From contig NZ_AKJF01000082.1 of assembly GCF_000282475.1 (NCBI RefSeq), positions 1 through 44,100 on the forward strand: 44,100 nucleotides of DNA, read 5' to 3'. Each line of letters begins with the position of its first letter. Position 1 is the stretch's first letter. Shown here in pieces: positions 402 through 38,246 of this stretch. The notes beneath the pieces were generated by a model, which made no database searches, was not told where the DNA came from, and was given only the letters and a program-made list of their open reading frames with translations. The DNA comes from Pseudomonas sp. GM78. Its GTDB lineage: Bacteria; Pseudomonadota; Gammaproteobacteria; Pseudomonadales; Pseudomonadaceae. The position numbers and the translations under genes were made by a program.

Positions 402-493
402 CGCTTCAAACGGACCTATTCTTTGTGGCCGGGAACGCTGTGGCAGTCGATCATCGCATGCTGCCGCCGTTGCTTCCCTCCGCTTAATCCTTG

Positions 494-24088: not shown

Positions 24089-24535
24089 TCAAAACAAGCC
24101 TTCTGCAACCTGTATTAGCATCTCCTCTACCTGGTGAGTACCTGATGCAGTTGCGAGCATCGCGATTGGATCCTTTCCTGAAAAACGACTCTTGGGCTTC
24201 GAAAGCCACGACCGGGCTTTCTCTTCGCTCCCAAATACCACTTCCGCCATAGCCAAGATATAGGCATTTCTGAATAGGCGGTCACTCTCATCTACTGTAA
24301 GTTTCTGCCCGCGCGACAACCGGAAGCTGAGTGTCTTGTGAGAGACAATGTGGTCACGTTGATGTAGGGGGATCTTGCCCAGCTCACAAAAAATATTGAA
24401 CCGGTCGATTGAAAAGCCTGCAAAGATCATCTCGTGGAGATCAGAGTCTGAAGCGTCAATAGGGAGATTGAGTAATTCTGACAACCCGCCCCGGAAGGCA
24501 CGATAAAAATCCTCTTTCAGCACTTCGGGAAGCAT
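24089..24535 (-). CDS. Xre/MbcA/ParS-type antitoxin, apparently orphan
   Basis: A 148-aa protein. The first ~70 residues resemble the Xre-like HTH of RES-Xre antitoxins (...IFCELGKIPLHQRDHIVSHKTLSFRLSRGQKLTVDESDRLFRNA). The C-terminal part, AEVVFGSEEKARSWLSKPKSRFSGKDPIAMLATASGTHQVEEMLIQVAEG, is the DUF2384-type toxin-binding domain. In intact loci a RES-domain NADase gene follows immediately. Here the bases downstream on the minus strand (24088-23900) hold no RES motif in any frame, so the toxin is missing. AAGGTG lies 5 nt upstream of the ATG. It could act as a solitary antitoxin against related toxins elsewhere, or be a relic. Confidence 0.8.
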   Translation of the reverse strand: MLPEVLKEDFYRAFRGGLSELLNLPIDASDSDLHEMIFAGFSIDRFNIFCELGKIPLHQRDHIVSHKTLSFRLSRGQKLTVDESDRLFRNAYILAMAEVVFGSEEKARSWLSKPKSRFSGKDPIAMLATASGTHQVEEMLIQVAEGLF

Positions 24536-24735
24536 GGTGCACCTTCATGGTTGGATCTTTGCCACTTAGTATCTGGCAGATCCATATTGCATGAAAGCGC
24601 GCAGATTTTGACGGCCTATTCCACATGGATCATTTGGAACTCGAGGGGCAGGGAAGCGCCCAGTCACTAGGGTGCTCGGTCAGGAGCGAAAACCCATAAG
24701 GATGGCTAAATCCATATCAACGCATGCGTATTGGT

Positions 24736-24990
24736 TCAGTCGCTTGCCGTCAAATCAGAAGCCAATTCGTGGAGAGACAGCGCTTCTGGCAAGAGAAATT
24801 GCGGCTCGCAATCCAATACGGTGGCTATGCGGTATAGCTTTTCCACGGTGATGTTGACTTCACCGCGCTCAATACGCCCCATATAGCTACGATCGACACT
24901 GCAGGAGTGCGCCAAGGCATCTTGGGAAAATCCTTTGGCCTTCCTTTGTGTCCGTATTCTTTCGCCCAATGCCTTCGCAAGCTGATGCAT
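24736..24990 (-). CDS. XRE-family repressor of the divergent helicase operon
   Basis: An 84-aa single-domain Cro/C1 HTH protein: LAKALGERIRTQRKAKGFSQDALAHSCSVDRSYMGRIERGEVNITVEKLYRIATVLDCEPQFLL, the standard five-helix fold, with a short acidic tail. ATG 24990 is chosen because GAGG lies 5 nt upstream on its strand; the frame stays open upstream but from a TTG only. Its ribosome site falls inside an imperfect inverted repeat (24993-25016). The divergent promoter 60 nt away has its -10 inside a perfect palindrome. Small XRE proteins of this kind (controller type) repress restriction and defence operons until their product accumulates. Confidence 0.92.
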   Translation of the reverse strand: MHQLAKALGERIRTQRKAKGFSQDALAHSCSVDRSYMGRIERGEVNITVEKLYRIATVLDCEPQFLLPEALSLHELASDLTASD

Positions 24991-24992
24991 AA

Positions 24993-25016
24993 CCGCCTCG
25001 GTTCCCACTGAGGCGG
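24993..25016. promoter_or_regulatory. Inverted repeat over the XRE ribosome site
   Basis: CCGCCTCGGT (24993-25002) and ACTGAGGCGG (25007-25016) are inverted arms with one mismatch and a 4-nt gap. The left arm contains the Shine-Dalgarno of the minus-strand XRE gene, so the element could be an autoregulatory operator or an mRNA hairpin that hides the ribosome site. Confidence 0.5.
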
Positions 25017-25029
25017 CACTATCGTGCGT

Positions 25030-25061
25030 TTGCGGATGAATCAACCACGGATTATAATCCG
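25030..25061 (+). promoter_or_regulatory. Sigma70 promoter with -10 inside a 14-bp palindromic operator
   Basis: TTGCGG (25030-25035), a 17-nt spacer, then consensus TATAAT (25053-25058). The -10 lies at the centre of the perfect palindrome CGGATTATAATCCG (25048-25061). A GCGGAT half-site also occurs at 25032-25037. Transcription would start near 25065 and run into the winged-helix gene at 25102. A repressor bound here would block RNA polymerase directly; the divergent XRE protein is the obvious candidate. Confidence 0.75.
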
Positions 25062-25101
25062 CATTTTGGCTGTTCCGCGAATTTCCCTTCCAGGTGCCTG
25101 C

Positions 25102-25683
25102 ATGAAACCCGATTCATTCATCCTCGACAGGCGGCTCTACGACCTGTTTCAGCAGGGGCATCTACGCCAGTTTACGACCCAGGATCTACGTGACGCCTAC
25201 GCTGCGCACCTGACGGGTATGACTTTCAACAGCAGTGACTTGCGTCGATATGTCTATGAGCAGATCCGACGCATGCTGCGTACCGGATGGGTCATTCAGG
25301 ATGAAAAACGACAAAAGCGGGGTCAGATCTATCACTGGCAGAGTATTCCGGCGAACTTGCAGGTGGAGCTCATCGACAATGGGTACGAAAGCAGTGCTAA
25401 GCCGGCGAACAAACCGTCTCATCAACCCTTACAAAGCACTGATCCAGAGCAGCCAGGCCCAGGTGTGATCGAGCACCTGGAGTCGATACTCAAAGAAATT
25501 CGGCTCGACTTTCTTTCTTCGATGGGAGAGGCGGAGCGGTATAAACAGCTGCTCGACGAAATGCCGCATCTGAAAGACCAGGTCGAAGGCGAATATCTGG
25601 AAGCACGAGACCGAAGCTCCCGTCTTTTAGGACATCTCCGAGCGGTCGAAAAGACGCTCAAGACAGTCACGTCCGCGCGATGA
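25102..25683 (+). CDS. Winged-helix plus coiled-coil protein, first gene of helicase operon
   Basis: A 193-aa protein of unknown function. Residues ~1-75 (RRLYDLFQQGHLRQFTTQDLRDAYAAHL..., DLRRYVYEQIRRMLRTGWVIQDEKRQKRGQIYHW) look like a winged-helix DNA-binding domain with a basic wing. A linker rich in Pro, Ser and Gln follows, and residues ~115-190 are charged and heptad-like (EHLESILKEIRLDFLSSMGEAERYKQLLDEMPHL...), probably a coiled coil. ATG 25102 is used (AGGTG 5 nt upstream); in-frame codons before it would lie within the promoter. Its stop overlaps the helicase start (ATGA at 25680-25683), so the two proteins are made in coupled amounts and probably interact. It may be the DNA-recognition partner of the helicase. 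Confidence 0.8.
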   Translation: MKPDSFILDRRLYDLFQQGHLRQFTTQDLRDAYAAHLTGMTFNSSDLRRYVYEQIRRMLRTGWVIQDEKRQKRGQIYHWQSIPANLQVELIDNGYESSAKPANKPSHQPLQSTDPEQPGPGVIEHLESILKEIRLDFLSSMGEAERYKQLLDEMPHLKDQVEGEYLEARDRSSRLLGHLRAVEKTLKTVTSAR

Positions 25684-27065
25684 AAGCATCTCCGAGAAAA
25701 TGGCAGAACCAATGCATTGAAATCGCGTTGGAGCACTACACCTCAACGCCGCACTTCTTCTGTCAGGCCACCCCAGGGGCCGGGAAAACTCGAATGGCCG
25801 CCGAGCTGGCTCGACAACTGATGGAGCAGGGCAAGATCGATCTCGTACTCTGTTTTGCTCCCTCATGCCAAGTCGTCGACGGCTTTCGCGCGACATTCTC
25901 TGCTGTATTGGGGAGGCGCCTGGATGGACTTATCGGTGCCATTGGAACCGCATGTACCTATCAAGCGATGGAGCACCAGGATGAAGCTTTCTGGGGGCTT
26001 TTCGATGACTATCGCGTGTTTGCAGTATTCGACGAGATCCATCACTGCTCAGGACACGATCCACTTTTGAGCAATGCCTGGGGGCAACAAATTCTTTTGA
26101 AGATGCAGGACCGTGCCGCCTTTACCTTGGCTTTATCGGGCACACCCTGGCGCTCCGATGACAGAGGTATTGCTCTGGCTCGTTACTCCAACCCGGAAGG
26201 CAGATTGATTTGCGATTATAGATACGGTCTCAAAGAAGCCATTTTTGACGGGGTTTGTCGGTCACCTCGCATCGTTCTGTTAGATAACCAGATGCTGAGG
26301 CTCAAAGAAGATTCTGCAAGTGACAGTACCGTCAAGATTTTTCCCAGCATCGCTAAGCTACTGCGTGAGTCACCGGTCTCCTACGAAGACCTGATTTGTC
26401 ATGAGGAAGCGCTCAGCCAGTTGCTCGACCTGGGGAGCAAGAAACTTGATGAAATGCGAATGCTTAAACCGAATGCCGCGGGCTTGGTTGTTGCCACCAA
26501 TATCGAGCATGCACACCAAGTCGCTATGGCGCTGAAGGACATGGGTGAAAGCTTCCAGGTCGTGACCACCAGAACCCCGGACGCGCAACAGGTAATCAAC
26601 GGGTTCAAAAATAGCGATTGCCGTTGGATTGTGGCGGTGGGAATGATCAGCGAGGGGACTGATATTCCGCGGCTTCAAGTTTGCTGCTACCTCAGTCGAA
26701 TTCGTACTGAACTGCATTACCGTCAGGTGCTGGGAAGAGTCCTTCGACGTATGGGCGAGATTGACGATCAAGCTTGGTTGTTCGTCTTGGCGGAGCCGAC
26801 ACTGAAGCGATTCTCTCAGCGTATCGCCGATGATCTGCCGGAAGATTTGGCTGTTGTGTGCTCAGTAGGTGAGCCTGCACCCCAGGCTTGTTCAATCGAA
26901 GGTGAGTTGGATTGTGCTGTGAACGCTCGCCCTGGGGACCAGGGAAACTCAACACCTACCGTTACAGCGCAGAAATTTCTATCACCGGTCGATTTATCCC
27001 CTGCATCGACTTATCACATAAGCTTTTCGAAGAATTATCGCCAGCAGCTGCTGGCCGTTTTTTGA
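25680..27065 (+). CDS. SF2 DEAD/DEAH-type helicase
   Basis: A 461-aa superfamily 2 helicase with all core motifs: the Q-like WQNQCIEIAL, motif I ATPGAGKTR (residues 30-38), motif II DEIH (118-121), motif III SGTPWR (153-158), motif V GMISEGTDIPR (321-331) and motif VI RQVLGRVLRR (348-357). The arrangement resembles the UvrB/RecG-like and restriction-type (type I/III, ResIII) ATPases. It has no recognisable nuclease or accessory domain, so its partner proteins must give specificity. The start overlaps the upstream stop (ATGA). The 59-aa ORF begins 32 nt after its stop codon. Likely role: DNA translocation or unwinding in a defence-like complex (inference). Confidence 0.92.
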   Translation: MKASPRKWQNQCIEIALEHYTSTPHFFCQATPGAGKTRMAAELARQLMEQGKIDLVLCFAPSCQVVDGFRATFSAVLGRRLDGLIGAIGTACTYQAMEHQDEAFWGLFDDYRVFAVFDEIHHCSGHDPLLSNAWGQQILLKMQDRAAFTLALSGTPWRSDDRGIALARYSNPEGRLICDYRYGLKEAIFDGVCRSPRIVLLDNQMLRLKEDSASDSTVKIFPSIAKLLRESPVSYEDLICHEEALSQLLDLGSKKLDEMRMLKPNAAGLVVATNIEHAHQVAMALKDMGESFQVVTTRTPDAQQVINGFKNSDCRWIVAVGMISEGTDIPRLQVCCYLSRIRTELHYRQVLGRVLRRMGEIDDQAWLFVLAEPTLKRFSQRIADDLPEDLAVVCSVGEPAPQACSIEGELDCAVNARPGDQGNSTPTVTAQKFLSPVDLSPASTYHISFSKNYRQQLLAVF

Positions 27066-27096
27066 TGTGCATTTTGTCCATTGCAAGGCCATATCA

Positions 27097-27276
27097 ATGC
27101 TGGTTCAGGGGGCCAAGGTCCGCCTGTGTTGGATCCCTGTGATCCATCTCTCCGCTGAGCTTAGCCAGATGCCGGGCTTCTTTAGCACTGATGGAGGAGG
27201 GAGGTACCTGGTTGTGATCGGCGCGACAGCAAGCCATTTTGCTCATCAAAAGCGTGAGGGTGGTAATGAAAGGTAA
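27097..27276 (+). CDS. 59-aa small protein between helicase and phosphatase genes
   Basis: A short ORF, MLVQGAKVRLCWIPVIHLS... to ...HFAHQKREGGNER, fills the gap in the operon. AAGG lies 8 nt before the ATG, and the TAA at 27274-27276 overlaps the start of the next gene (ATG 27266) by 11 nt. A GTG at 27067 would extend it so that it starts one base after the helicase stop. There is no family match I can name; it has a beta-like centre (RYLVVIGATA) and a basic end. The position and overlaps argue that it is translated, either as a functional small partner or as a leader that couples translation. Confidence 0.5.
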   Translation: MLVQGAKVRLCWIPVIHLSAELSQMPGFFSTDGGGRYLVVIGATASHFAHQKREGGNER

Positions 27277-28270
27277 GCGCAAAGCGAAAACATCCAAATG
27301 GGCCATGAAGTTTCGATTTGAAATGGAGGCTGAGCGGTTAATGTCCGCTAGGTCCGAAAAAGCGTCAAATCGTTTTCTTGATGTCGCGCTGCATTTGGGT
27401 TCAGCGCACGAGCCGCTAGGCAAGCTCGCCGGGGCGCCACCCAACAACCACTCAAATAGTCCCGATCTGCCAGCGCTGCTTTCCTCCGTCATCAACATCG
27501 TTTGCCAGGCAGGACAACTTCTCGTAACAGAATGGCAACGAGCAGACGGGCCAAGGGGGCAGGGGGACAAGGCAGTAGTTGATGTGGAAATTGAACAGCT
27601 TCTACGTCAGCAGTTGCTTGACCTGTTGTTCTGCGACTTCTGGGGGGAGGAGACCGACCATACCCTGACAGGAGATTCATGGTGCTGGGTTGTTGATCCC
27701 AACGATGGCACAAATGATTTTCTGAGAGGGCTAAAAGGTTCAGCTATTTCAGTCGGCCTTCTGCACAAGCACACGCCAATATTAGGTGTGGTTTATGCGC
27801 CTGTAACGATAGAAGGTGTTCCAGATTGCATCGCTTGGGCTGAGGGATTGTCCAATTTGATACGCAATGGGAAATCCGTATCACCCAAGCTTCCGGACAT
27901 GATTTGGTCGAGCGATAGCCGTGTGATGCTCAGTTCAGCTGCCGTGAATAAGGCAGAAATAAATCAAGAGCTTTGTGCTCCAAGCAGTTTCGTCGCCATG
28001 CCCTCGATCGCCTATAGGCTTGCAAAAGTAGCCGCTGGCGATGGCGTGTGCGGTGTATCTGTCTGCCCTGTGTCTGCTCATGATGTTGTTGCGGGTCATG
28101 CGTTGCTTAGGGGGACGGGCGGAGTTTTGCTCAATGAAACTGGAAATTCAATACAGTACGTAACGCAGGACAACATGCAAGTAGTATCAAGACGCTGCTT
28201 TGGTGGATTGGAAGCTGTGTGCCGGACATTGGCTGCTCGAGAATGGGATCGCATTTTCACAGATGATTAA
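27266..28270 (+). CDS. Inositol monophosphatase/CysQ-fold protein with N-terminal extension
   Basis: A 334-aa protein whose residues ~70-330 form an IMPase/CysQ-type phosphatase. Metal-site motifs are GDKAVVDVEIE (100-110), GEE (127-129), WVVDPNDGTNDFLRG (141-155, the DPxDGTxxF signature with Asn at the variable place) and SAHDVVAGHAL (270-280, the WDxAAG equivalent). All acidic metal ligands appear kept. Housekeeping members are ~250 aa; here ~70 extra residues precede the domain and begin strongly basic (MKGKRKAKTSKWAMKFR). ATG 27266 has GAGGGTGG just upstream. Known family substrates are inositol phosphates, PAP and PAPS. Placement at the end of a helicase operon under an XRE repressor suggests a nucleotide or DNA-end substrate; that is inference. 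Confidence 0.88.
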   Translation: MKGKRKAKTSKWAMKFRFEMEAERLMSARSEKASNRFLDVALHLGSAHEPLGKLAGAPPNNHSNSPDLPALLSSVINIVCQAGQLLVTEWQRADGPRGQGDKAVVDVEIEQLLRQQLLDLLFCDFWGEETDHTLTGDSWCWVVDPNDGTNDFLRGLKGSAISVGLLHKHTPILGVVYAPVTIEGVPDCIAWAEGLSNLIRNGKSVSPKLPDMIWSSDSRVMLSSAAVNKAEINQELCAPSSFVAMPSIAYRLAKVAAGDGVCGVSVCPVSAHDVVAGHALLRGTGGVLLNETGNSIQYVTQDNMQVVSRRCFGGLEAVCRTLAAREWDRIFTDD

Positions 28271-28367: not shown

Positions 28368-28520
28368 ATGTATAAATCCTTGAGCCAGAGTCAGGTTCGT
28401 CGCCGCTTGCGCCGACTCCTTGCGCTGGTCAATCAAGGCTACACCTTTGTCATCACCAAGCATGGCAAAGCGGCTTGTTTGCTCTTGGAGGAGAAAAGGG
28501 AAAGAGGGGATGATAAATGA
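28368..28520 (+). CDS. Miniature Phd/YefM-like antitoxin (50 aa)
   Basis: A 50-codon ORF: MYKSLSQSQVRRRLRRLLALVN, GYTFVITKHGKAACLLLEEK... The pattern of an N-terminal R/L-rich helix, then a 'G-x-x-x-x-I-T-K/R-x-G-K-x-x-A-x-L' strand-turn-strand is that of the Phd/YefM DNA-binding half. It lacks the C-terminal toxin-neutralising tail of full-length members (~80 aa). AAGAGGT lies 9-15 nt before the ATG. Its stop overlaps the start of a 32-codon ORF (ATGA at 28517-28520). It may be a truncated antitoxin whose toxin gene was replaced by the adjacent aldehyde dehydrogenase fragment, or a mini-regulator. Confidence 0.6.
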   Translation: MYKSLSQSQVRRRLRRLLALVNQGYTFVITKHGKAACLLLEEKRERGDDK

Positions 28521-28615
28521 GCAAAGCGCCTCGACCCATAAATAAGACGTTCCTGGACGGATCGCAATCGGGAATGGCATCAAGCCCTTATGATCTATCC
28601 ATGAGTAATGCCTGA
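28517..28615 (+). CDS. 32-codon ORF overlapping the Phd-like gene
   Basis: Begins with the ATGA overlap at 28517-28520 (GAGGGG 7-12 nt upstream) and reads MSKAPRPINKTFLDGSQSG... to a TGA at 28613-28615. The gene position is where a toxin would be expected after a Phd-type antitoxin, but the product matches no toxin family I recognise. It may be the 5' end of a toxin gene interrupted by the aldehyde dehydrogenase fragment, or not a gene. Confidence 0.3.
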   Translation: MSKAPRPINKTFLDGSQSGMASSPYDLSMSNA

Positions 28616-28718
28616 CACCTCATTCGTTGCTGCGAGCAGTAGCTTGCCGGCATCGAATACAAGAATGTCCTGCGGTCGACAGCCTCCAATGTATCCATTA
28701 CTGGAGGTTAAAACCGGG

Positions 28719-29447
28719 GCGAACACCATGAAGCGCGTGACGCTCGAACTGGGCGGCAAGTCGCCCACCGTGGTGCTTGACGATGCGGACTTCCAGGCGG
28801 TAATGCCCTTGGTTCTGCATGCCGAATTTCTCAACAGCGGCCAGGCTTGCGTCGCGGGCACGCGCATCCTTGTGCCGCGCGGGCGGCTTGCAGAGTTTGA
28901 GAGGGTGGCGGAGCAGGCTGTGTCTCAGATCCAACCGGGCGATCCGCGCAACGCCGACACTGACATCGGCCCGATGGTGAGCCAGAAACAATGGGAGCGG
29001 GTGCAGCGCTACATTCGTACTGGCCAGGAAGAAGGTGCGAGGTTGCTGGCGGGTGGCGAGGGTCGCCCGGAAGGCCTGCACGTCGGCTGGTTCGTGAAGC
29101 CCACGATCTTCACTGATGCCCACAACCGGATGCGCATCGCGCGCGAGGAAACATTCGGCCCCGTGCTGACGATCATCCCCTACGACGATGACGCTGATGC
29201 GATCAGTATTGCCAACGACACGGACTATGGGCTGAGCGCCCTGGTGCTGGGCAAGAGTTCCGAACGCTGTCTGAATATCGCCCGCCAGATCGATTCGGGA
29301 CGTGTGCTCATCAACACCCTTGCCCACGAACCGCGTGTTCCCTTTGGCGGCTTCAAGCATTCAGGCCTTGGGCGCGAAATGGGCAAGTGGGGGATGAGTG
29401 CTTATCTGGAGCCGAAGACATTGATCACGTACGATCTGTTGACATGA
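28719..29447 (+). pseudogene. Aldehyde dehydrogenase, C-terminal half only
   Basis: Homology begins abruptly at GANTMKRVTLELGGKSPTVV and continues to the normal C-terminus (VPFGGFKHSGLGREMGKWG, YLEPKTL). The catalytic Glu (LELGGKSP) and catalytic Cys (NSGQACVAGTR) are present, and so is the EETFGPVL segment, but the ~240-residue NAD-binding N-terminal half is absent. The frame stays open upstream to 28608, yet those residues look unrelated to the family. About 240 of ~480 residues remain, so it cannot be an active enzyme. The codon choice looks more GC-rich than its neighbours, suggesting another origin. It separates the Phd-like gene from the subtilase. Confidence 0.88.
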
Positions 29448-29757
29448 TCGGGTGGATTTCTGCTTGGGAGCACTTAGCGGGAACAGCAGAAAGCGTCTGC
29501 TTCTGGCCGATTTCTGCCTGTTGTGCGGCTAGACTGTCTGGGTCAATTCAGCCTGTCGTGACCGGCAGCAAACCAAAGAAGACATGCACTGGCTGGAGGT
29601 ATCGGCGAGGAGAAAGAGCCCAAAAGGTGCCTATGAAACCAAGGGCGAATTCGGGTTGCTTTCGACTGTATTAAGCTATGGAACACCTGGGAAGGGTAAA
29701 GCAGCCAGCCCCCATATCTGGCCACTTTCTCCAGCATTGAAATGGTCAAGGTGCCAA
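29448..29757. other. 310-nt gap between ALDH fragment and subtilase gene
   Basis: No convincing gene. Around 29495-29519 the bases GCGTCTGCTTCTGGCCGAT resemble the GCTTTTGGCCGAT junctions of the two repeat elements at 34.3-34.8 kb, which suggests that this GGCC-centred motif is dispersed in this genome. The remaining sequence shows nothing I can name. Confidence 0.4.
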
Positions 29758-32013
29758 TTACACGTGCACGGCCGCCAGAGCAAAGTCCTGTGGACCCGCC
29801 GAGACATTCGAGGCGACAACTTCGATTGTCCACTCGCCAACCATTGGCTTGTCGACTTGGACCATTTCGACATTATTGGTGCTGTCGAGTTTGAGGATTC
29901 CGGCCTTCGCACCGGCAGACTGGTTGCCAATCAATCTCTTCCCGGACGGAGTGCGAACGATGAGATTGAGGTTGTTCACCAGTTTTTTTCCTGGATAGTC
30001 AGTGTAAGCGAGCACTATCCGTATAGGCCGTGCCGTCTCTGCAATCGTTTGTGTGACAATCCACTTTTTCCCCGTCACGAGGGCCGGTCCATCAATCGTA
30101 AGAATTGGGTAGGAGAGTGACCGGTCAAGATTTACACGTCCAAAACCTTGATGGGGGTCGAGCAAGACGCCTTTGGGAGCCGTTCCAGGCAGACGCTCCG
30201 CCCCGGCGATCAGTAATGCTTTGATGAGGGCTGCACTCGGATTGGATAGCTGCCTTTGGCTGCGTAGATATTCTCGCAGCAATGCCGCCGCCCCAGCTGT
30301 GAGCGGTGTGGCCATGCTTGTTCCCCCCATGTAGAAGTATTTGTGGTTGATCGGATATGGGGACCACGCAAAGTTATTCGGGGCGATTTGGGTCGAACGC
30401 GTAGAGAGAATGAAGGTGCCTGGGGCAACGACATCGGGCTTGATGCGGCTGTCGCTGGTGGGACCGCGGCTGCTAAATGCCGCCACCTGGTCCGGCTTGT
30501 CAGCCATCGGGGCGCTGTGGAGTGGGGCCACAGGGTAGTCGTCTGGCCACCACTCACCATAGGTATTGGACTTGAATTCCGGACGCCTGTTTTCACTTGC
30601 TCCCACGGTAATGCAATTCTTGGCCGTTCCAGGAGACGTCACACTCATTAAATTGATCTTGCCGTCACCATCCTTGTCTGTCCCATCGTTTCCTGCTGCG
30701 ATGATGAAGCAGAAATCCCGGTGTTTCCAAACATACTCGTCAAATTGCCTGCATTGATCGTCGTATTCACCAGCATCCCCACCGCCCCAAGAATTGGAGT
30801 GGATACGGGCGCCTTTATCGTAAGCGAACTGGAATAAGGTGCCGAGATTGTCGGGCAGGCCAGCAAGTATGTATCGGCGTCGTGCCAGGCTCGGAGCGGT
30901 TGCTGGCTTCCATTTCATTTCCTGCTCTATGGCTTGAAAAACAAGCTTGGCCTTATAGGCGAGGCCATGGATTCGTTCCGGTCCACCGTTCGATGCGGTA
31001 CCGTTGCCGAGCACCGAACCACTGACATGCGTGCCATGCCCGGAGTCGACATCGGCGGCTCCGTCATCCGCGCCGCCATTGGTGACGTAATCAAGCCAGG
31101 ACGAGGCAATTGGATAGCTCTTGATAGCGACGATCCTCCCGGCGAAATCAGGATGGATGGTCGCCGGATCCCCCGTGTCGAGACCGGTATCACATACGGC
31201 AATGATTTCCCCATCGCCAGTCAGGCCGAGCTTTGTAGACATGCTTTTCGGATTGCCGTTACCCATGATGATGGTGGCCACGTTATTGCTTGTTCGCGGA
31301 ATGACCCTTTGCCGGACGTATCGCACGCCGTGCACTGCAGACACCTGACGCAGTTGCTCCGGGATGGTTTTCGAGGCCTGGGTGGATGCCACGATCAAGA
31401 CGCGAGCACGGGCGTTCTTGGCAAGGATCTTAAACCCGAGTCGACTTACCTCCTTCGAAATCCTCTGCACATCGGCACCGTCAAAAAGCTCTATCGAGAA
31501 ATTGTCAGGGACCTCGTGCCGCCTCGGGAGAGTTTCACCGTTATCTTTTTTCTCCACGAGTTCAGGAGCAAGCCGCGCATCGTGTTGCAAATGTCCCACC
31601 CACTGTACGAAGGGGAGCGCGGCAATCTTCGTGAGTTGTTTCCCCGCCGTCCGGATGACATATCCAAAAGCGCCATAGGGCTCGCAAATTTTCACTCCGA
31701 CTTTTCGCAGTTGGTTCAACCAGGTGCGTTTGATTGGAGCAATGAACTGCACCACGTAGTGGTGTGGCTTCTCATCCACTTCGGATACATTCGGGTCAAC
31801 TCCCCCGCGGCTCAGCGTGTTGATCGTGTGCTTGCCCATTTGCAAGTCATATTCCTGAGTGATGTCTTCTACAGGAAACTCACGCGCTAGTTCTGTGGCG
31901 TCCTGGTTATTCGCCTGAACCACCACGAACGCGTCATAACGATCAATGATCTGCGCTCGTGTCTCAATTGAAGGGATATCGGATTTGTCAGCAAAAACTT
32001 TGAGGACAGACAT
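29758..32013 (-). CDS. S8 family serine peptidase (subtilase), no signal peptide
   Basis: A 751-aa subtilase. The triad is Asp275 (AVCDTGLDT), His326 (DSGHGTHVSG) and Ser566 (GGTSMATP), with the oxyanion Asn442 (AAGNDG). Residues 1-250 form a long N-terminal part with repeated ferredoxin-like segments (YVVQFIAPIKRTWLNQLRKVGVKICEPYGAFGYVIRT), comparable to propeptide domains. A beta-rich C-terminal domain (~640-751: IVLAYTDYPGKKLVNNLNLIVRTPSG, then GEWTIEVVA) is like that of the KP-43 type. The N-terminus (MSVLKVFADKSDIP) has no signal peptide, unusual for subtilases, so it may act inside the cell or leave by another route. An AAGGAGC ribosome site precedes the ATG. Neighbouring genes are accessory. 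Confidence 0.93.
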   Translation of the reverse strand: MSVLKVFADKSDIPSIETRAQIIDRYDAFVVVQANNQDATELAREFPVEDITQEYDLQMGKHTINTLSRGGVDPNVSEVDEKPHHYVVQFIAPIKRTWLNQLRKVGVKICEPYGAFGYVIRTAGKQLTKIAALPFVQWVGHLQHDARLAPELVEKKDNGETLPRRHEVPDNFSIELFDGADVQRISKEVSRLGFKILAKNARARVLIVASTQASKTIPEQLRQVSAVHGVRYVRQRVIPRTSNNVATIIMGNGNPKSMSTKLGLTGDGEIIAVCDTGLDTGDPATIHPDFAGRIVAIKSYPIASSWLDYVTNGGADDGAADVDSGHGTHVSGSVLGNGTASNGGPERIHGLAYKAKLVFQAIEQEMKWKPATAPSLARRRYILAGLPDNLGTLFQFAYDKGARIHSNSWGGGDAGEYDDQCRQFDEYVWKHRDFCFIIAAGNDGTDKDGDGKINLMSVTSPGTAKNCITVGASENRRPEFKSNTYGEWWPDDYPVAPLHSAPMADKPDQVAAFSSRGPTSDSRIKPDVVAPGTFILSTRSTQIAPNNFAWSPYPINHKYFYMGGTSMATPLTAGAAALLREYLRSQRQLSNPSAALIKALLIAGAERLPGTAPKGVLLDPHQGFGRVNLDRSLSYPILTIDGPALVTGKKWIVTQTIAETARPIRIVLAYTDYPGKKLVNNLNLIVRTPSGKRLIGNQSAGAKAGILKLDSTNNVEMVQVDKPMVGEWTIEVVASNVSAGPQDFALAAVHV

Positions 32014-32446
32014 CGCAAAGCTCCTTGTTAGGCAAGAGAGGCCGGCGCAGGCTTTCGTTTTTTAGCAACACTCTTTTTCCAGGGGGCACCAGCACGTCCG
32101 TGACGTACACTTCGGTCCTTTCCGTTAAAGCCAACACATACGTCATAGTAGTACGGTGAATACAAATCCACCTCCGCTACTGCGACAGGAGCGCCTGGAG
32201 TGAAAAGGCGAATGTCCGCATCTGGCCGGCTCCCACCGGTCGCGGCAGTCAGGAGTTAGCCAGATGCGTTAATCCTGAATCGGCTGCTTTTGGGCGCCCC
32301 AGTACCGGCTATGATGTCTTTGTCAGCGTCGCGGAACGGTACATACATGGCCTCAGTCGTCCAGGCTAGAGGTGCAGGCTTCGACACCTGCTGCTGGCAG
32401 CTCGCTGCAATCAGCCATTTCATGGCGCTCAATCTCACCTTCCGGG
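32014..32446. other. Intergenic region between divergent subtilase and SEC-C genes, with a possible small minus-strand ORF
   Basis: A minus-strand frame is open from 32255 to the TAA at 32028-32030, ending 15 nt before the subtilase start. It reads ...PGAPVAVAEVDLYSPYYYDVCV, RSVRHGRAGAPWKKSVAKKRKP, but it has no ATG; a GTG at 32171 would give 47 aa. It may be the eroded 3' end of a gene once upstream of the subtilase. The remainder must contain the promoters of both divergent genes; no clear site is seen. Confidence 0.35.
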
Positions 32447-34066
32447 ATGCCTATGCGGATGCGCAACACGCCTGGCCGAAATGATCCCTGCCCTTGCGGT
32501 AGCGGCCGCAAGTTCAAAAAATGTCATGGGACAATCGACAGTCTCAACATAGTGCGAAAGCCAAATGGACCGCTCATACTCCAGGAGATGCAGATGACAC
32601 TCGCTCGTCATGAAGCCCAAGAGTTTCAAAGGCGTGAGCAGCAGGGTCTTGGTAGGCCGATCATTTCCACTGAGTACCATGATCACAGAGTCATAGCCGT
32701 CGGTCAGACGATACATTTCTCACAGAAGTGGAAAACGTTTCACGACTTCCTGAACGACTACCCCAAGATCGTCTTAGGCAAAGAATGGTGGATGTCAGAG
32801 GGAAACAAGCCTCCAGAGGAGCGACATCGTATTCTCACCTGGGCAGTCCGCAGCTACGAGCACGCAAAAGCTCACATGGAACAGATGGGGCCAGGTGTTG
32901 CTCAGCCGATGACGGGGGCCATTGGTGTCTATATGCGCTTCGCATATGACCTTTACAGCCTGAAGCACGCCGTCGAGGTCCAGAAGCTGCTTATCGATCG
33001 AATCAAATGCCCCGAGAACTTCCCTGGTGCGTTGTATGAAGTGCAGGTCGCCGCCGCCCTGCTTCGGGCGGGCTTCAGGCTGCAGCACCAAGATGAAACC
33101 GACAGACGTACTACCCACGTTGAGTTCATCGCTACGGATGCTAAGTCCGGTGCGACTTACGCCGTTGAGGCCAAACGACGAGAAGGCAGGCGGATGAACG
33201 TCAATAGGCAAATACATCGCGCTTTGAGCAAAAAGTCGGATCACCCTCGCATTGTTTTTATTGACACAAACGATGGGCGCTTAGAACTGGGCAGGGGCCG
33301 GCCTAATCCAGTAGCGCTTGTGGAGGCTGAGAACCTCTTGAAGCTATATGAGCGAGACCCGACTGGGCAAACGCTTCCGCAGGCATATGTCATAGTCACG
33401 TACGATCCGGATGAGCATCACCTTGATGCCATTGATCTGCCTTCCGGAGTGCTTCTCTGGGGCTTCCACATCGAAGATTTTCATCCTGGGCCGAAAACCC
33501 TGCTCCAGCAGGTCAAAATTAGGCGTCGGCATGCGCCAGTCTTTTCGCTGCTGGAGTCCATGCAGAAGCACCGGCGCATCCCCGCGACGTTTGATGGAGC
33601 GGCTGAGGCGTTCTCAGGCGGAACTCCCAAGGCACGGCTACAGGTCGGTCAGCGGATGGAAGTGCCAGGACCCAACGGAACGCAGATTGAGGCGACGCTA
33701 GAGAGTTGCGTCGTCATGCCCAAGTCGAGAGAGGCATTTTGTGTCGTTCGCAGCGACGATCAACAGCGCTTCGTAGTCAAAATTCCGTTGACAGATGATG
33801 AACTACAAGCTCACGCCCAGCACCCTAAGACCTTCTTTGGCGTTATTGATAAAAATGCTGGGCGTCCGCGTCCGAAGACTGGCTTGGACTGGTTCGACTT
33901 CTTCTGGGAAACATACTCGAGCAGCACAAAAGAGAAACTCATAGAGCTCATGGACCATGCTCCTGACGTTGAAAGATTGAAGCAGATGACCCAAGAGGAC
34001 TTGGCCTACGAATACTGCGCTCAAATGGCAAACGCAATGATTAAGCCCCAAATGGGAAGGATGTGA
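32447..34066 (+). CDS. SEC-C zinc motif plus PD-(D/E)XK-like nuclease-fold protein
   Basis: A protein of about 539 aa; ATGs at 32447, 32453 and 32459 are all possible starts and no clear ribosome site decides. At the N-terminus GRNDPCPCGSGRKFKKCHG is a SEC-C zinc motif (Cys15, Cys17, Cys26, His27), as found at the end of SecA and in many stand-alone proteins. Around residues 195-245, ALYEVQVAAALLRAGF, then HVEFIA, then YAVEAKRREG give an E198...E226...E241-x-K243 pattern that resembles the PD-(D/E)XK nuclease core. The ~300 residues after it, including QVGQRMEVPGPNGTQIEATLES, are unassigned. No signal peptide. It diverges from the subtilase gene. A nuclease effector in defence is possible, but the fold assignment rests on a motif only. 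Confidence 0.78.
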   Translation: MPMRMRNTPGRNDPCPCGSGRKFKKCHGTIDSLNIVRKPNGPLILQEMQMTLARHEAQEFQRREQQGLGRPIISTEYHDHRVIAVGQTIHFSQKWKTFHDFLNDYPKIVLGKEWWMSEGNKPPEERHRILTWAVRSYEHAKAHMEQMGPGVAQPMTGAIGVYMRFAYDLYSLKHAVEVQKLLIDRIKCPENFPGALYEVQVAAALLRAGFRLQHQDETDRRTTHVEFIATDAKSGATYAVEAKRREGRRMNVNRQIHRALSKKSDHPRIVFIDTNDGRLELGRGRPNPVALVEAENLLKLYERDPTGQTLPQAYVIVTYDPDEHHLDAIDLPSGVLLWGFHIEDFHPGPKTLLQQVKIRRRHAPVFSLLESMQKHRRIPATFDGAAEAFSGGTPKARLQVGQRMEVPGPNGTQIEATLESCVVMPKSREAFCVVRSDDQQRFVVKIPLTDDELQAHAQHPKTFFGVIDKNAGRPRPKTGLDWFDFFWETYSSSTKEKLIELMDHAPDVERLKQMTQEDLAYEYCAQMANAMIKPQMGRM

Positions 34067-34267
34067 CCCATTCTCCGGCTCTAGCCCAGCAAAACTCTAG
34101 TGCCTGAGGACGACGAGCGTCACCGCCCTTGAATAAGCTTGGAATGCTCCCATGAGTCGGCTCATGCTATTTCTCACAACGGTTGAACGACCGCATCCCA
34201 CAGTCGAGATTGAACTTCAAAATGTCCACACCGGGTCGATAAATACCGTTCGCGAGTGGCTGCTTTT

Positions 34268-34454
34268 GGCCGATTCTGTTGAAAAAGTCGATTCTTCCAG
34301 ACAGCCCCCCATACTGAGCGCTGAAAACGTCTTTTTGCGCGTTGCTACGCCAAATCTGAGCCCCGAATCCCATGCTCAAAGCAAAGATTTTCAATCTCAA
34401 GCGCGTACTTTTCTGTCGTGGAAACCATGGCCGACTTTTTCAACAGAATCGGCC
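34268..34454. mobile_element. MITE-like element, copy 1 (187 bp, 23-bp perfect terminal inverted repeats)
   Basis: GGCCGATTCTGTTGAAAAAG... at 34268-34290 is the exact reverse complement of 34432-34454. The interior is non-coding and nearly the same as in copy 2 (shared stretches include GAAAACGTCTTTTT, AATCTGAGCCCCGA and TCAAGCGCGTACTTTTCTGT). GGCC stands at both ends and may be a duplicated or palindromic target. No transposase is present. Confidence 0.82.
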
Positions 34455-34555
34455 GATTGCTGCACATCGCGAAGGGCAGAAATCGTCGCTCAAAGGCCGA
34501 CCGTGTCTTGAAGGTAAACTACCGCTGATTGGTGAAAGTTGCCCTTGGAAAACGT

Positions 34556-34753: not shown

Positions 34754-35092
34754 CTACCGTTGGACGCGTTCCCTCCCACGATGGACCACCAGATGATCCA
34801 TACAGCCGTTAGCCCCTCGAAGGCTAGCCGCGTTGCTACTCCACCCTAAGCCCTGGCATCCTGAGTAGCCTGCGCACGGATGCCAACCAGTCGCGAGCCC
34901 ACCGACTACGCGAACTGCCCGATGAAAGCCCAGTGCTGCCCGAACACTATGTTTCGCGCGCAGACGCGCCAGCCGTCCGGACAAGGCCGGCTGCGTAATC
35001 CCCAGGTGGGTCGCGGCCCTCGTCACATTACGCACTTCGTTCAGCGCCTTGAGTGCCAGTAACAAGGTTGCGTCAATATCCGCGTAGCTCAT
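34754..35092 (-). pseudogene. LysR-type regulator, N-terminal fragment
   Basis: From the ATG at 35092 (GGAG upstream) the frame reads MSYADIDATLLLALKALNEVRNVTRAATHLGITQPALSGRLARLRA, a normal LTTR HTH of ~46 residues. After that the sequence (KHSVRAALGFHRAVRVVGG...) no longer resembles an LTTR and stops at 34754, beside MITE copy 2. The ligand-binding domain is gone, so it is a truncated gene. It lies 35 nt downstream of the MBL-fold gene on the same strand and may be the former regulator of that cluster. A short DNA-binding peptide might still be made. Confidence 0.8.
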
Positions 35093-35127
35093 GGCCGTCT
35101 CCGTGTTCGTGTGGTTGCCCGCCCATC

Positions 35128-36123
35128 TCAGTCGCGGTTTCGGTATTGGCTGGCAACCCACTCGTAGTGTTCACCTTTACGTCGAATGTGGCCCACACCG
35201 GGGAAGGGTAGATGGGCAACGGCCACCAGCTTTCTTTCTTCTGCTGCCGCCGCAAACTGACGCAGGCGTTGTGCGCGGGCAGCGTCCTGGTTTATGTCGA
35301 ACGTGATGGTCACTTGCGGTTGCGGGAACTGGATCAGGCCGACATGCATGATATCGCCCCAGAACTCGATGCTTTGACCCTCATTCTCGAGCAGAAAAAA
35401 GCTGTGACCTGGCGTGTGGCCCGGAGTAGGGATGGCAGTGATGCCGGGCACAATCGTTGTTTTTCCGGAAAATACTTTCACCTTGCTGGCCCTGTTGTAC
35501 GGTCCAATAGTTTTCAGTGCTTCTTCCAGATGAGCTGGTTTCAAGCCCTTGGAAAGGTTGGCGCGATCAAGGAAAAAATCGACATCGGCTTGATTAACGT
35601 GAACCATTGCGTTGGGGAACAGCATCTTGCCGCCGCGTGTCAGTCCGCCGGAGTGATCGGTATGAATATGCGTGATCAGGATATCGCTGACCTGTTCGGG
35701 TCGGTAACCGGCTGCCGCCAGGCTGTCCGGCAGTTTGCCAGCGACGGAACCGAATAGCTCACCGGCGCCGCTGTCGATCAGGACCACGCGAGGTCCATCG
35801 TCGATCACATAGGCATTGATTGAGGTTTCAAGCGGATTGCTGGCGAAGCCGTTGTGCAGTAGCGCATCGATCTGCCGTGGGGATATGCCCCTCAAGAGCG
35901 GGTGCAGGTCGAGCGGTAGCGTACCATCGCTCAATGCGGTGATGCGGACATTGCCCACGTTGAACCGATAAACGCCGGGGACTTGCGGTTTGAGCGTTTG
36001 CGCAGAGGGCGCGGCAATTGCCGGTAGTGTCTCTGCGGCCATCGATTGGAGGGGGTAGGTTGCCGCGAAAGAAAGAATGGCAGCGGTCAGCGTCTTAATG
36101 TGGGGCCGCATCGTACTTTTCAT
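35128..36123 (-). CDS. Exported metallo-beta-lactamase-fold hydrolase
   Basis: A 331-aa protein. The start at 36123 (AAGGTG 7 nt upstream) gives a signal peptide: MKSTMRPHIKTLTAAILSFAATYPLQSMAA, cleavage near residue 30. The MBL zinc motif is THIHTDHSGG (His152, His154, Asp156, His157); further ligands are in GHTPGHS, FWGDIMHVG and VAHLPFPGVGH. The family includes lactonases, sulfatases and beta-lactamases; substrates cannot be told from motifs. It is likely periplasmic. It is last in the minus-strand series after the exported amidase (176 nt apart), so the two could act on the same imported compound, for instance an N-acyl lactone or amide. Confidence 0.9.
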   Translation of the reverse strand: MKSTMRPHIKTLTAAILSFAATYPLQSMAAETLPAIAAPSAQTLKPQVPGVYRFNVGNVRITALSDGTLPLDLHPLLRGISPRQIDALLHNGFASNPLETSINAYVIDDGPRVVLIDSGAGELFGSVAGKLPDSLAAAGYRPEQVSDILITHIHTDHSGGLTRGGKMLFPNAMVHVNQADVDFFLDRANLSKGLKPAHLEEALKTIGPYNRASKVKVFSGKTTIVPGITAIPTPGHTPGHSFFLLENEGQSIEFWGDIMHVGLIQFPQPQVTITFDINQDAARAQRLRQFAAAAEERKLVAVAHLPFPGVGHIRRKGEHYEWVASQYRNRD

Positions 36124-36299
36124 GAGGAGCACCTTTAGATTGGCGCGACCATGGGTGATCGCGTAAACCAAGATAGGGGCAAGTCTTCGCGCAGAGAACT
36201 GTGGTGTCTCTTGTACGTACCATAGCGTGTGATAGCTACGATACTAGTCAACGGCGTGAGACAGATGCGTATTTCTTGGAATGTGATTTCGGGTATCAA

Positions 36300-38246
36300 C
36301 TAATCCTGCGGCTCCTGCAATTCGCGCACCGCCATTGCCCCCGTCCCAAGGGGTGAGTCCAGGGTATAAAGCTGCACGCGCAGTCGGCCTGCCAACAGTT
36401 CCTCGCGATCCCTGGCCTTGAGAATCAAGCTGTCGCTCGCCCGAGTCATATGGGGTTTAAGCAAGTTCCATATGATCGGCCCCGGCTTCTCGTCGAGGCT
36501 GCGCGCAAGCGTTACACCAGCAACCTGATCGCCGGGAATGTCGCGTGTATGAGCGGTGTAAGCGAGTTTACCCGTGAGCTTGTCGTAAACGAAGTTCACC
36601 ACGACCGAGGCATTCTGGGTAGTGAGTGAGGTGGCCTGGAACTTCAATGGCGAAGGCGCCTTGCCAGCCTCCAGCGGCGGGGTGGTGAATGGCGGGTGAC
36701 GTGGCTGGGTGTTGCGTTCCCAACCATAGGCCAGGTTCAGGAGTTCGGACTCGGCATATTCGTTCCCCAGCAACTCCAGTCCCACCGGCAACTGATCGGC
36801 TGACCAGCCCGCTGGCAGCGCGATAGCGGGTAGACCGGTGCTGGCGCTTAGCTGGCAGTTCGTGGCGCCGAACTGCGGTTCTCCGATCAGCGCAGGCTTG
36901 CGTTGAATGGTCGGGTAGGCCAGGGCACTCAAGTGCTGGTTACGCAATTGCAGGGTTATCAGGGCCTTTAGTGCCGCGCGTTTCTGCAGAACCTTGTTCA
37001 ATGCTTCCCGGTCGCTGGCTTTTTCGAGGTCGACAGCGTCGCGAATCCGCAGGCCAGGATCGAGCAGTAGATGATCCATGCCTTGTTCAAGTATCTGGCC
37101 CAGGCTGTCCACGGGAGCGCCGGGATGTTTAGCGAGATAAGCGGCCAGGTCGTACTTGAATTCGTAAGGGATGATGCTGCTGTCACGCAGCAATTCGTCC
37201 AGTTCCGGAATCGAGATTTCAACCACTGTGGCACCCTGGGTCTTGAGATGCTCCAGCGCCTTGTCGATGACCTGCACCACCTCCATGTCCTCAGGGGCGG
37301 TACCAAACAGCCCGCGGATCACGCCGATTCTCGCGCCTTTCAAGCTATCGGCCTTGAGTGAGGTGAGATAGGAGGGGGGAATATGCCGATTAGCATCAGC
37401 AGTCGAAGGATCGCTCGCATCGCTGCCGACAGTGGCATCGAGCATGACTGCCAGGTCCGCAACACTGCGTGCCATAGGACCTGCTACGTCCTGGGTTGAG
37501 GACAGCGGCATCACTCCGCTACGGCTGGCAAGACCTCTGGTAGTGCGCAGTCCCACCAGATTCTGATAGGCCGCTGGAATCCGTATGGAGCCGCAGGTAT
37601 CGCTGCCCATACCGGCGGTGGCGAAACTGGCGGCCACTGCTACGGCGGTGCCTCCGCTGGAGCCGCCCGGTGCGCGAGTCGGGTCGTAGGCGTTGCGGGT
37701 ATAACCCGTCAAGGAAGACACCGTGGTGACGCCGGCAGCCAGCTCGTGCATCGTCGTCTTGCCAATGATGACCGCCCCCGCCGCGCGTAATCGCTGCACC
37801 TGGTAGGCATCGGCGGTGGGCCGTAGATTGGCGAGTGCGAGGGTGCCGCCGGACGTTGGCATGTCAGCGGTGTCGTAGTTGTCCTTGACCACGATAGGGA
37901 TCCCGTGGAGCGGGCCGCGCGGCCCTTTCGTGCGGCGTTCTTCGTCGAGGCGCTGTGCGTCCTGCAGCGCGTTCGGATTGAGACTGACCATGGCATTGAG
38001 CGCCGGCCCCTGTTGATCGTAAGCCTTGATCCTTGCCAGGTATTGTTCCACCAGCTCGTGCGAGCTGATCGTGCCGGCGCTCATTGCCGCCTGCAACTCG
38101 CTGATCGAGGCTTCATATACAGAAGGTGCCGGACTCGCTGTTACCGCCTGGGTATTGGCTGCCAGCCCGAGGCAGGCAATAGCGCAGAGTGAACCCGATG
38201 TTCTGCGTGTAAGTGAGAAGGCGTTTGTCACGTGCAGTGTTTTCAT
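36300..38246 (-). CDS. Exported amidase-signature hydrolase with CHRD-like C-terminal domain
   Basis: A 648-aa amidase-signature enzyme. A signal peptide is visible (RRTSGSLCAIACLGLAANTQA, cleavage near residue 35). The Ser-cisSer-Lys triad is Lys121 (VVKDNYDT), Ser197 (GGSSGGTAVAVA) and Ser220 (DTCGSIRIPA). The amidase domain ends near residue 530. The last ~105 residues (ASVVVNFVYDKLTGKLAYTAHTRDIPG ... LLAGRLRVQLYTLDSPLG) resemble a CHRD domain. Amidase-signature enzymes hydrolyse amide bonds; export and the extra domain suggest a peptide-like or polymeric substrate outside the cytosol. It lies 12 nt after the deacylase gene, so they are co-transcribed. Confidence 0.9.
   Translation of the reverse strand: MKTLHVTNAFSLTRRTSGSLCAIACLGLAANTQAVTASPAPSVYEASISELQAAMSAGTISSHELVEQYLARIKAYDQQGPALNAMVSLNPNALQDAQRLDEERRTKGPRGPLHGIPIVVKDNYDTADMPTSGGTLALANLRPTADAYQVQRLRAAGAVIIGKTTMHELAAGVTTVSSLTGYTRNAYDPTRAPGGSSGGTAVAVAASFATAGMGSDTCGSIRIPAAYQNLVGLRTTRGLASRSGVMPLSSTQDVAGPMARSVADLAVMLDATVGSDASDPSTADANRHIPPSYLTSLKADSLKGARIGVIRGLFGTAPEDMEVVQVIDKALEHLKTQGATVVEISIPELDELLRDSSIIPYEFKYDLAAYLAKHPGAPVDSLGQILEQGMDHLLLDPGLRIRDAVDLEKASDREALNKVLQKRAALKALITLQLRNQHLSALAYPTIQRKPALIGEPQFGATNCQLSASTGLPAIALPAGWSADQLPVGLELLGNEYAESELLNLAYGWERNTQPRHPPFTTPPLEAGKAPSPLKFQATSLTTQNASVVVNFVYDKLTGKLAYTAHTRDIPGDQVAGVTLARSLDEKPGPIIWNLLKPHMTRASDSLILKARDREELLAGRLRVQLYTLDSPLGTGAMAVRELQEPQD

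Follow-up and report, generated by a model that had tools for sequence, protein, structure and literature searches.

The window analysed here is the complete contig C82 of Pseudomonas sp. GM78, a 44.1-kb stretch of DNA within a 7.29-Mb genome, and it carries a unit of three genes that is conserved well beyond this strain: a small regulator of the XRE family, a protein with a winged helix and a coiled coil, and a helicase of superfamily 2 (SF2). These three genes, 738 amino acids (aa) in total, are the core of what had been proposed, in an earlier reading of the sequence alone, as a larger defence-like operon. We suggest, with a probability of roughly 0.5, that the module is a mobile, XRE-gated cassette of two effector proteins, directed most likely against phages or other foreign DNA.

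The linkage of the three genes was examined in the best 80 of at least 468 confirmed helicase relatives, obtained from a scan of one genome per species (several loci come from the same genome); together with the window they form 81 loci, labelled L followed by a number, as genomes are labelled G, and genes in the relatives were called with a simple in-house open reading frame (ORF) caller. The winged-helix gene stands immediately 5' of the helicase gene in 79 of the 80 relatives, L164 being the only one with the helicase alone, and the divergent XRE gene is also kept in 72. Seven relatives have the winged-helix gene without the XRE gene; six of them lie at a contig edge, and in the seventh (L121) the winged-helix gene is broken. 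In the window, the winged-helix and helicase frames share the ATGA at 25680–25683, and across the 79 relatives and the window this junction is an ATGA overlap in 76 of 80 cases and a 1-base overlap in the other four.

Moreover, the proteins of the three genes diverge in step with one another (Mantel r between their distances 0.95, 0.87 and 0.88 over 73 loci, reached by 0 of 999 permutations each), the value of 0.95 being that between the winged-helix protein and the helicase. The ratio of nonsynonymous to synonymous substitution rates (dN/dS), calculated against six close relatives, is 0.08–0.17 for the XRE gene, 0.02–0.12 for the winged-helix gene and 0.09–0.15 for the helicase gene, values that indicate purifying selection on all three. 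Judged by this conservation (72 to 79 relatives out of 80), the low dN/dS and the Mantel r of 0.95, the linkage goes beyond chance. In the closest pair, the window and L113, the module shows purifying selection and no recombinase was detected nearby.

The sequence-only reading had described an XRE gene diverging from four tightly packed genes. The XRE gene, the winged-helix gene and the ATGA-overlapped helicase gene are as described there, whereas the 59-aa gene and a 334-aa protein with an inositol monophosphatase (IMPase) fold do not hold as they had been read. Its more general proposal, a conserved XRE-controlled operon of a predicted DNA-binding winged-helix protein and a helicase, is supported, and the module lies in defence-rich mobile islands. 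The features discussed in this work are listed in Table 1.

Table 1. Features of the window, in order of position
Feature	Position	Strand	Remarks
gabT RNA	424–484		consistent with Pseudomonas
Xre/MbcA/ParS-type antitoxin gene	24089–24535	-	without recognised toxin gene alongside
XRE/HTH_3 single-domain regulator, 84 aa	24736–24990	-	HTH_3 5e-13; PADLOC Control_protein 1.6e-15; core
Divergent control region	24991–25101	.	29 invariant columns in 68 distinct sequences
Inverted repeat, consensus CCGYCTCAA-N6-TTGAGRCGG	24993–25016	.	covers XRE ribosome-binding site as read by eye
Promoter-like pair TTGCGG-N17-TATAAT for winged-helix gene	25030–25058	+	read from sequence
Winged-helix protein with C-terminal helical hairpin, 193 aa	25102–25683	+	ATG 25102; core
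SF2 (ResIII/RadD/XPB-like) helicase, 461 aa	25680–27065	+	ResIII and Helicase_C above Pfam cut-off; core
63-codon ORF	27266–27454	+	homologue of free-standing small ORF in other islands; dN/dS 0.34–1.5; not core
IMPase-fold phosphatase (Inositol_P), 271 aa	27455–28270	+	PF00459 1.8e-23; optional companion, not core
Phd-type antitoxin gene	28368–28520	+	without recognised toxin gene alongside
Aldehyde-dehydrogenase-like fragment, 279 codons	28608–29447		between IMPase and peptidase; named by eye
S8 peptidase, 751 aa	29758–32013	-	Peptidase_S8 3e-47; downstream of IMPase

The helicase belongs to SF2 by its motifs and its two RecA domains; the window copy has motifs I, II, III, V and VI intact, and each of them is present in 78 to 81 of the 81 loci. 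Its structural model (m429c57e59274) has a mean predicted local distance difference test score (pLDDT) of 69, with residues 398–449 below 50, and a short conserved C-terminal peptide occurs in 47 of the 81 loci. By sequence and by structure, the nearest solved relatives are RadD and XPB, and the core is closest to RadD (YejH; 6jde, phmmer 2.5e-6; 8h5y, Foldseek 5e-17). Nevertheless, the protein does not qualify as a RadD equivalog, scoring 50.3 bits against a cut-off of 720 and covering profile positions 4–347 of 573. RadD is not known to lie in an XRE/winged-helix operon. The helicase part of PbeA, from the PbeABCD system, matches the window helicase as well (48 bits, best stretch at profile positions 379–618 of 672). 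PbeA carries an HKD nuclease according to PMC10853773, whereas the window helicase has no PLD/HKD domain in the Pfam scan, its match is limited to the helicase part of PbeA, and no PbeBCD genes were seen beside it. Helicase relatives in phages are distant: 38 phage records contain one, a single record with at least 80% coverage, and in 49 viral loci identity does not exceed 34%. Two actinobacterial plasmid homologues (L243, L244) have no XRE/winged-helix pair by annotation.

The AlphaFold2 model of the winged-helix protein (pLDDT 85.2, 69 aligned sequences) consists of a winged helix at about residues 4–98, a disordered segment at 101–117 and a helical hairpin at 120–191. No Pfam family matched it above cut-off. 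The top Foldseek matches are PadR regulators (best 5x11, E 2e-4, template modelling (TM) score 0.27), and a second alignment covers mainly the hairpin, which is similar to many unrelated coiled coils. In PadR-type regulators, too, a long helical hairpin comes after the winged helix; unlike them, the window protein is translationally coupled to a helicase. The architecture of winged helix plus coiled coil is supported by the model, while kinship to PadR is not inferred, because the TM score is about 0.3 and the alignment lies mainly over the coiled-coil-like hairpin. A fold search of the model against viral structure models returned no match below E 0.001. A phage origin of the gene was also considered and rejected, there being no match at E 1e-5 in 50,697 phage records.

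In PADLOC 2.0.0, a 2023 release that leaves newer systems outside, no family matched the winged-helix protein at E <= 1, and the helicase matched generic or partial helicase models only. The sequence-only reading knew of no named defence system with this composition, and none was found in PADLOC 2023 or in the mostly open-access literature searched; among the papers listed for the helicase module, for six protein accessions, for the IMPase and for GInts, none deals with the module. Shango (TerB, an ATPase and a DEAD/DEAH helicase), according to PMC10250203, is also a small helicase-bearing defence operon of Pseudomonas islands, but the partner genes of the module are different.

The XRE start is best placed at the ATG at 24990, the same start as in the annotated homologues L061 and L069; an alternative TTG at 25044 would make the protein 102 aa long. 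The spacing between the XRE and winged-helix starts is mostly 99–111 bp across 80 loci, and the control region between them keeps its invariant columns while the winged-helix proteins drop to 42% identity with that of the window. The arms of the inverted repeat co-vary, with 24 cells changed on both sides against 7.2 in shuffled data (0 of 500) and at most 13 in slid controls, although further pair types, at 8, stay below the 9.4 of the shuffles. This repeat is the proposed XRE operator, and it may alternatively be read as a leader hairpin. In the promoter-like pair, the -10 element TATAAT sits in the almost fixed palindrome CGGATTATAATCCG (25048–25061), and TATAATCCG is invariant across the 68 control-region sequences. 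A consensus promoter scan does not report the pair, which fails the -35 rule of that scan. We read TTGCGG-N17-TATAAT as a putative winged-helix promoter and the dyads of the control region as putative XRE operators. The control (C) proteins of restriction-modification (R-M) systems are likewise single-domain XRE proteins that have a dyad at their own start and diverge from an operon; the module differs from them in lacking a cognate restriction enzyme or methyltransferase, neither of which was found among seven window proteins scanned with Pfam, PADLOC and NCBIfam.

These elements suggest how the cassette could work. Within the shared control region, the XRE protein would bind both dyads and keep the two promoters low. 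Once it is titrated or absent, for example when the module enters a new cell, coupled translation would yield the winged-helix protein and the helicase together. The winged-helix protein may pair through its helical hairpin, bind DNA and load or direct the helicase, a RadD/XPB-like motor that would translocate on, or remodel, replicating or branched DNA of the invader. The resulting block would arise from remodelling of DNA or from host nucleases rather than from cleavage by the module itself, because no nuclease domain was found in the three proteins. The IMPase and the small ORF would be optional neighbours in this scheme.

Several traits make defence appear the likeliest role: a patchy distribution, mobility, the link to an XRE regulator, occasional broken copies and the company that the module keeps; the purifying selection seen in the window and L113, both without a recombinase detected nearby, points the same way. 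The closest named relatives of the module locus, among the relatives studied, are from Pseudomonas. In this genus, the winged-helix gene is present in 36 of 298 genomes (E 0.001), four of which hold a fragment only (G056, G151, G212, G231), and it was not found in the same-species genome. It also occurs in 21 of 72,556 plasmid records, and a DNA search with the version from an E. coli plasmid matched 3 of 5,426 E. coli genomes, two of them over at least 80%; in one of the matching genomes the module lies beside broken SE-like genes.

Defence genes lie within 8 kb of the module in at least 22 of the 80 loci (union, by cluster membership): type I R-M subunits in 12–13, type IIG enzymes in five, HEC-06 in two, and Gabija GajA and MzaB in one each. 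These counts are lower bounds, since 20 proteins were scanned one by one; for 12 of the 20, PADLOC gave nothing at 1e-8 or better, and one matched only RecD-like and candidate models. On plasmids, seven of the 12 annotated stretches around the module (L061, L062, L064, L069, L070, L246, L247) carry defence-type genes, namely CBASS, TIR, Pycsar, DUF499-type, multiubiquitin or R-M-like genes or a CRISPR transposon. The last of these is found on the Vibrio plasmid locus L246, in which a Tn7-like element that carries type I-F cas genes encloses the module, with TniB on one side of it and TniQ on the other. In a broader comparison, 130 sampled module neighbours matched 205 PADLOC families, and 130 sampled proteins from random regions matched 10, where families are models, many of them near-duplicates, and not proteins.

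Several results weigh against a defence role. As a control, 82 non-recombinase proteins from 20 SE-like islands without the winged-helix gene and helicase matched 220 PADLOC families; this control was not dereplicated, an XRE match occurs in two of its regions, where the other two genes are missing, and five of its genomes (G056, G096, G217, G270, G288) carry the winged-helix gene or a fragment of it elsewhere. The islands are thus defence-rich in general, and the module is one passenger among others, not singled out by its company, because SE-like islands without it are equally rich in PADLOC families. Furthermore, Pfam, PADLOC and NCBIfam scans found no nuclease or other toxic domain in the three core proteins. 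In a class-wide draw of 369 genomes, the helicase was found at E 1e-60 in one, the genome of the window itself. Finally, in 11 loci the module occupies the first slot behind a recombinase operon, a position that would fit a role in the element too. A fuller version of the defence reading is no more than tentative, clearly short of even odds: the three genes would form a so far undescribed immune system that does without a nuclease, its winged-helix loader and RadD/XPB-like motor halting the invader by remodelling its DNA, and multi-recombinase islands would carry it as first-slot cargo because it protects the cell and excludes rival elements.

The first-slot position behind unrelated recombinase operons is the reason why a different role deserves respect, although it is rather unlikely: the module could be an accessory of multi-recombinase elements that aids or regulates copy-out circularisation, replication or immunity of islands of the SE or GInt type. 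Operons with the gene order and sizes of these islands are frequent neighbours of the module. Strand-biased circularizing elements (SEs) are characterised by the genes intA, tfp, intB and srap and GInts by a ginABCD operon; the labels SE-like and GInt-like used here rest on gene order and size rather than on published sequences. SE-like operons lie near the module in eight loci (L062, L064, L067, L068, L069, L156, L176, L247), GInt-like operons in two (L063, L187) and other multi-recombinase operons in four (L117, L122, L153, L186), and Pfam integrase matches were obtained in L074, which has the same operon as L117, and in L122. Two SE-like gene sets match each other weakly, in intA and intB only, and neither matches the GInt-like set (E 0.001). 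The first-slot loci are L062, L068 (with an insertion sequence between), L069, L156, L176, L063, L187, L122, L153, L186 and L174, or eight distinct ones after the near-identical pairs L068/L176, L069/L156 and L153/L186 are merged. Altogether, recombinase genes occur in the fetched flanks of 31 of the 80 module loci and in none of 20 random regions positioned by hand. Additionally, 11 Pseudomonas genomes have both the winged-helix gene, with fragments counted, and the SE-type tfp (odds ratio 4, p 0.0016).

Against such a helper role stand the loci without these elements. With the queries used, no recombinase was detected in 27 of the 48 loci that extend at least 8 kb on both sides. An intact winged-helix gene lies within 3 kb of tfp in only three of 37 tfp genomes (G032, G139, G251), with a fragment in G231, a count in which broken contigs can hide links. 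The window itself holds none of the recombinase genes searched for: it has no match to the two SE-like gene sets (L069, L064) or to one GInt-like set (L063), and its genome has no match for SE-type intB or tfp. In addition, PMC5385486 reports that ginABCD alone is enough for a synthetic GInt to integrate and excise, PMC10214605 describes one SE that carries no cargo gene, and the words 'helicase' and 'Xre' are absent from the texts of both.

Two observations concern the recombinase operons themselves. L074 (1295–7775) and L117 contain a four-gene operon encoding proteins of 735, 672, 322 and 435 aa, two of them with integrase domains; compared by BLAST at E 0.001, this operon matches neither the SE-like sets nor the GInt-like set. 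It may represent another type of multi-recombinase element, and the same may be true of an operon of 694, 204 and 472 aa in L122, L153 and L186.

Unlikely as well is a function in DNA repair or in plasmid or island maintenance, in which a RadD-like helicase with its own loader would be selected under DNA stress and not by phages. Both in structure and in sequence, the helicase has its best relative in RadD, and umuC-like genes (cluster 7, named by eye) recur near eight of the 80 loci; on the other hand, the helicase remains far under the RadD cut-off (50 versus 720 bits), the island company is shared with defence systems, and the module is under XRE control (no search for SOS boxes was made).

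The sequence-only reading had gone further and joined four products into one system, with an IMPase-fold protein acting on a nucleotide or a phosphorylated end. This composition is very improbable. The IMPase does have its metal-binding motifs by eye and exceeds the Pfam cut-off for Inositol_P (84 versus 27 bits), and its dN/dS is 0.16 against L113 and 0.29 against L114. It is present downstream of the helicase, on the same strand and within 3 kb, in seven of the 81 loci, from several lineages, either directly downstream or behind a 100-aa gene. At the genome level, the IMPase subfamily occurs in 12 of the 36 Pseudomonas genomes with the winged-helix gene and in 20 of the 262 without it (odds ratio 6, p 7e-5; the 32 positive genomes were hand-picked from the genome-search table). 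However, no such IMPase was found in the other 74 loci, including 11 relatives that end less than 3 kb past the helicase, and L122 has IMPase pieces downstream but on the opposite strand. In other loci the IMPase is mostly free-standing, and in three it lies near HipA/HipB-like genes (names by eye). When the neighbourhoods of homologues of the 193-aa and 334-aa proteins were examined, as that reading had recommended, the winged-helix and helicase genes proved linked and the IMPase was mostly elsewhere. Rare co-occurrence, which the reading had itself named as speaking against a joint system, was found for the IMPase and for the 59-aa ORF. Since the IMPase co-occurs with the module above chance, it is a frequent fellow traveller and not a core part. 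NCBIfam does not class it as a CysQ bisphosphate nucleotidase (TIGR01331, 66 bits against a cut-off of 229), and no PADLOC family matched it at E <= 1.

The remaining parts of the proposed four-gene set change on comparison with relatives. The supposed 334-aa extended IMPase consists of two parts read as one, a 63-codon ORF and a 271-aa IMPase. The two are likewise run together in L113, L114 and L077; in other genomes they are separated by a stop, or there is a match to the small ORF but none to an IMPase. Complete IMPase homologues with called frames nearly all start at about residue 64 and are 265–275 aa long. The 59-aa protein (27097–27276) was rejected as a real gene, being unconserved in five aligned relatives: stops interrupt the corresponding frame in L113, L115 and L116, in L114 it stays open but continues into the following ORF, and L077 gives short matching pieces only. 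The 59-aa protein also has no family match in Pfam, PADLOC and NCBIfam. In L108 (8534–10790), L106 and L107, the small ORF and then the IMPase follow the gene of a 175-aa protein, from which another XRE-type gene diverges; L062 has for comparison the order XRE-type gene, 149-aa protein and IMPase. The arrangement in L106, L107 and L108 is possibly the original home of the small ORF and the IMPase.

That the XRE protein is the controller of adjacent R-M genes, with the helicase as part of them, is hardly credible, for although it matches the PADLOC Control_protein models and R-M genes were identified beside at least 18 of the 80 loci, none were identified in the other 62, where part of the neighbours was scanned, and the same three genes are kept regardless of neighbours.

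If the module defends its host, it would be a minimal nuclease-free system, easy to clone and test at its 738 aa, and its conserved control region would predict switching-on in a new host. If it serves its carriers instead, it would be an accessory factor common to several unrelated multi-recombinase islands, for which the mechanism of copy-out is an open question (PMC10214605). Either way, borders are now set for genes that are annotated on plasmids as 'hypothetical protein' and 'DEAD/DEAH box helicase family protein'.

These borders come from comparison with five close relatives. In two of them, DNA similarity to the window runs from the XRE stop to just past the helicase stop (24732–27069), and in the other three it extends beyond this block on one side or both. 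The two that share the block alone are the most rearranged of the five, and their block sets the module border. An empty site was sought in the same-species genome G264 and not found. The left flank of the window matches G264 in scattered pieces, the three main ones 66–69% alike; positions 28600–34500 give short matching pieces only, and the right-flank piece tested (34754–38246) gives no match. Because the flanks match in scattered or short pieces or not at all, insertion borders cannot be drawn in the window.

The surroundings of the module contain the orphan antitoxins and gene fragments that had been reported from the sequence, namely the Xre/ParS-type and Phd-type genes and the aldehyde-dehydrogenase-like fragment, the last of which is a sign of gene loss or insertion. 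A ParS-type gene adjoins the module in L114, L115 and L116, and lies near the IMPase in L106–L109. On the plasmid locus L071, a larger S8 peptidase and a neighbouring ATP-binding gene likewise follow this IMPase subfamily. L113 contains, downstream of the module (13661–14066), a second and degenerate C-terminal fragment of the helicase, as if a former extra copy had been there.

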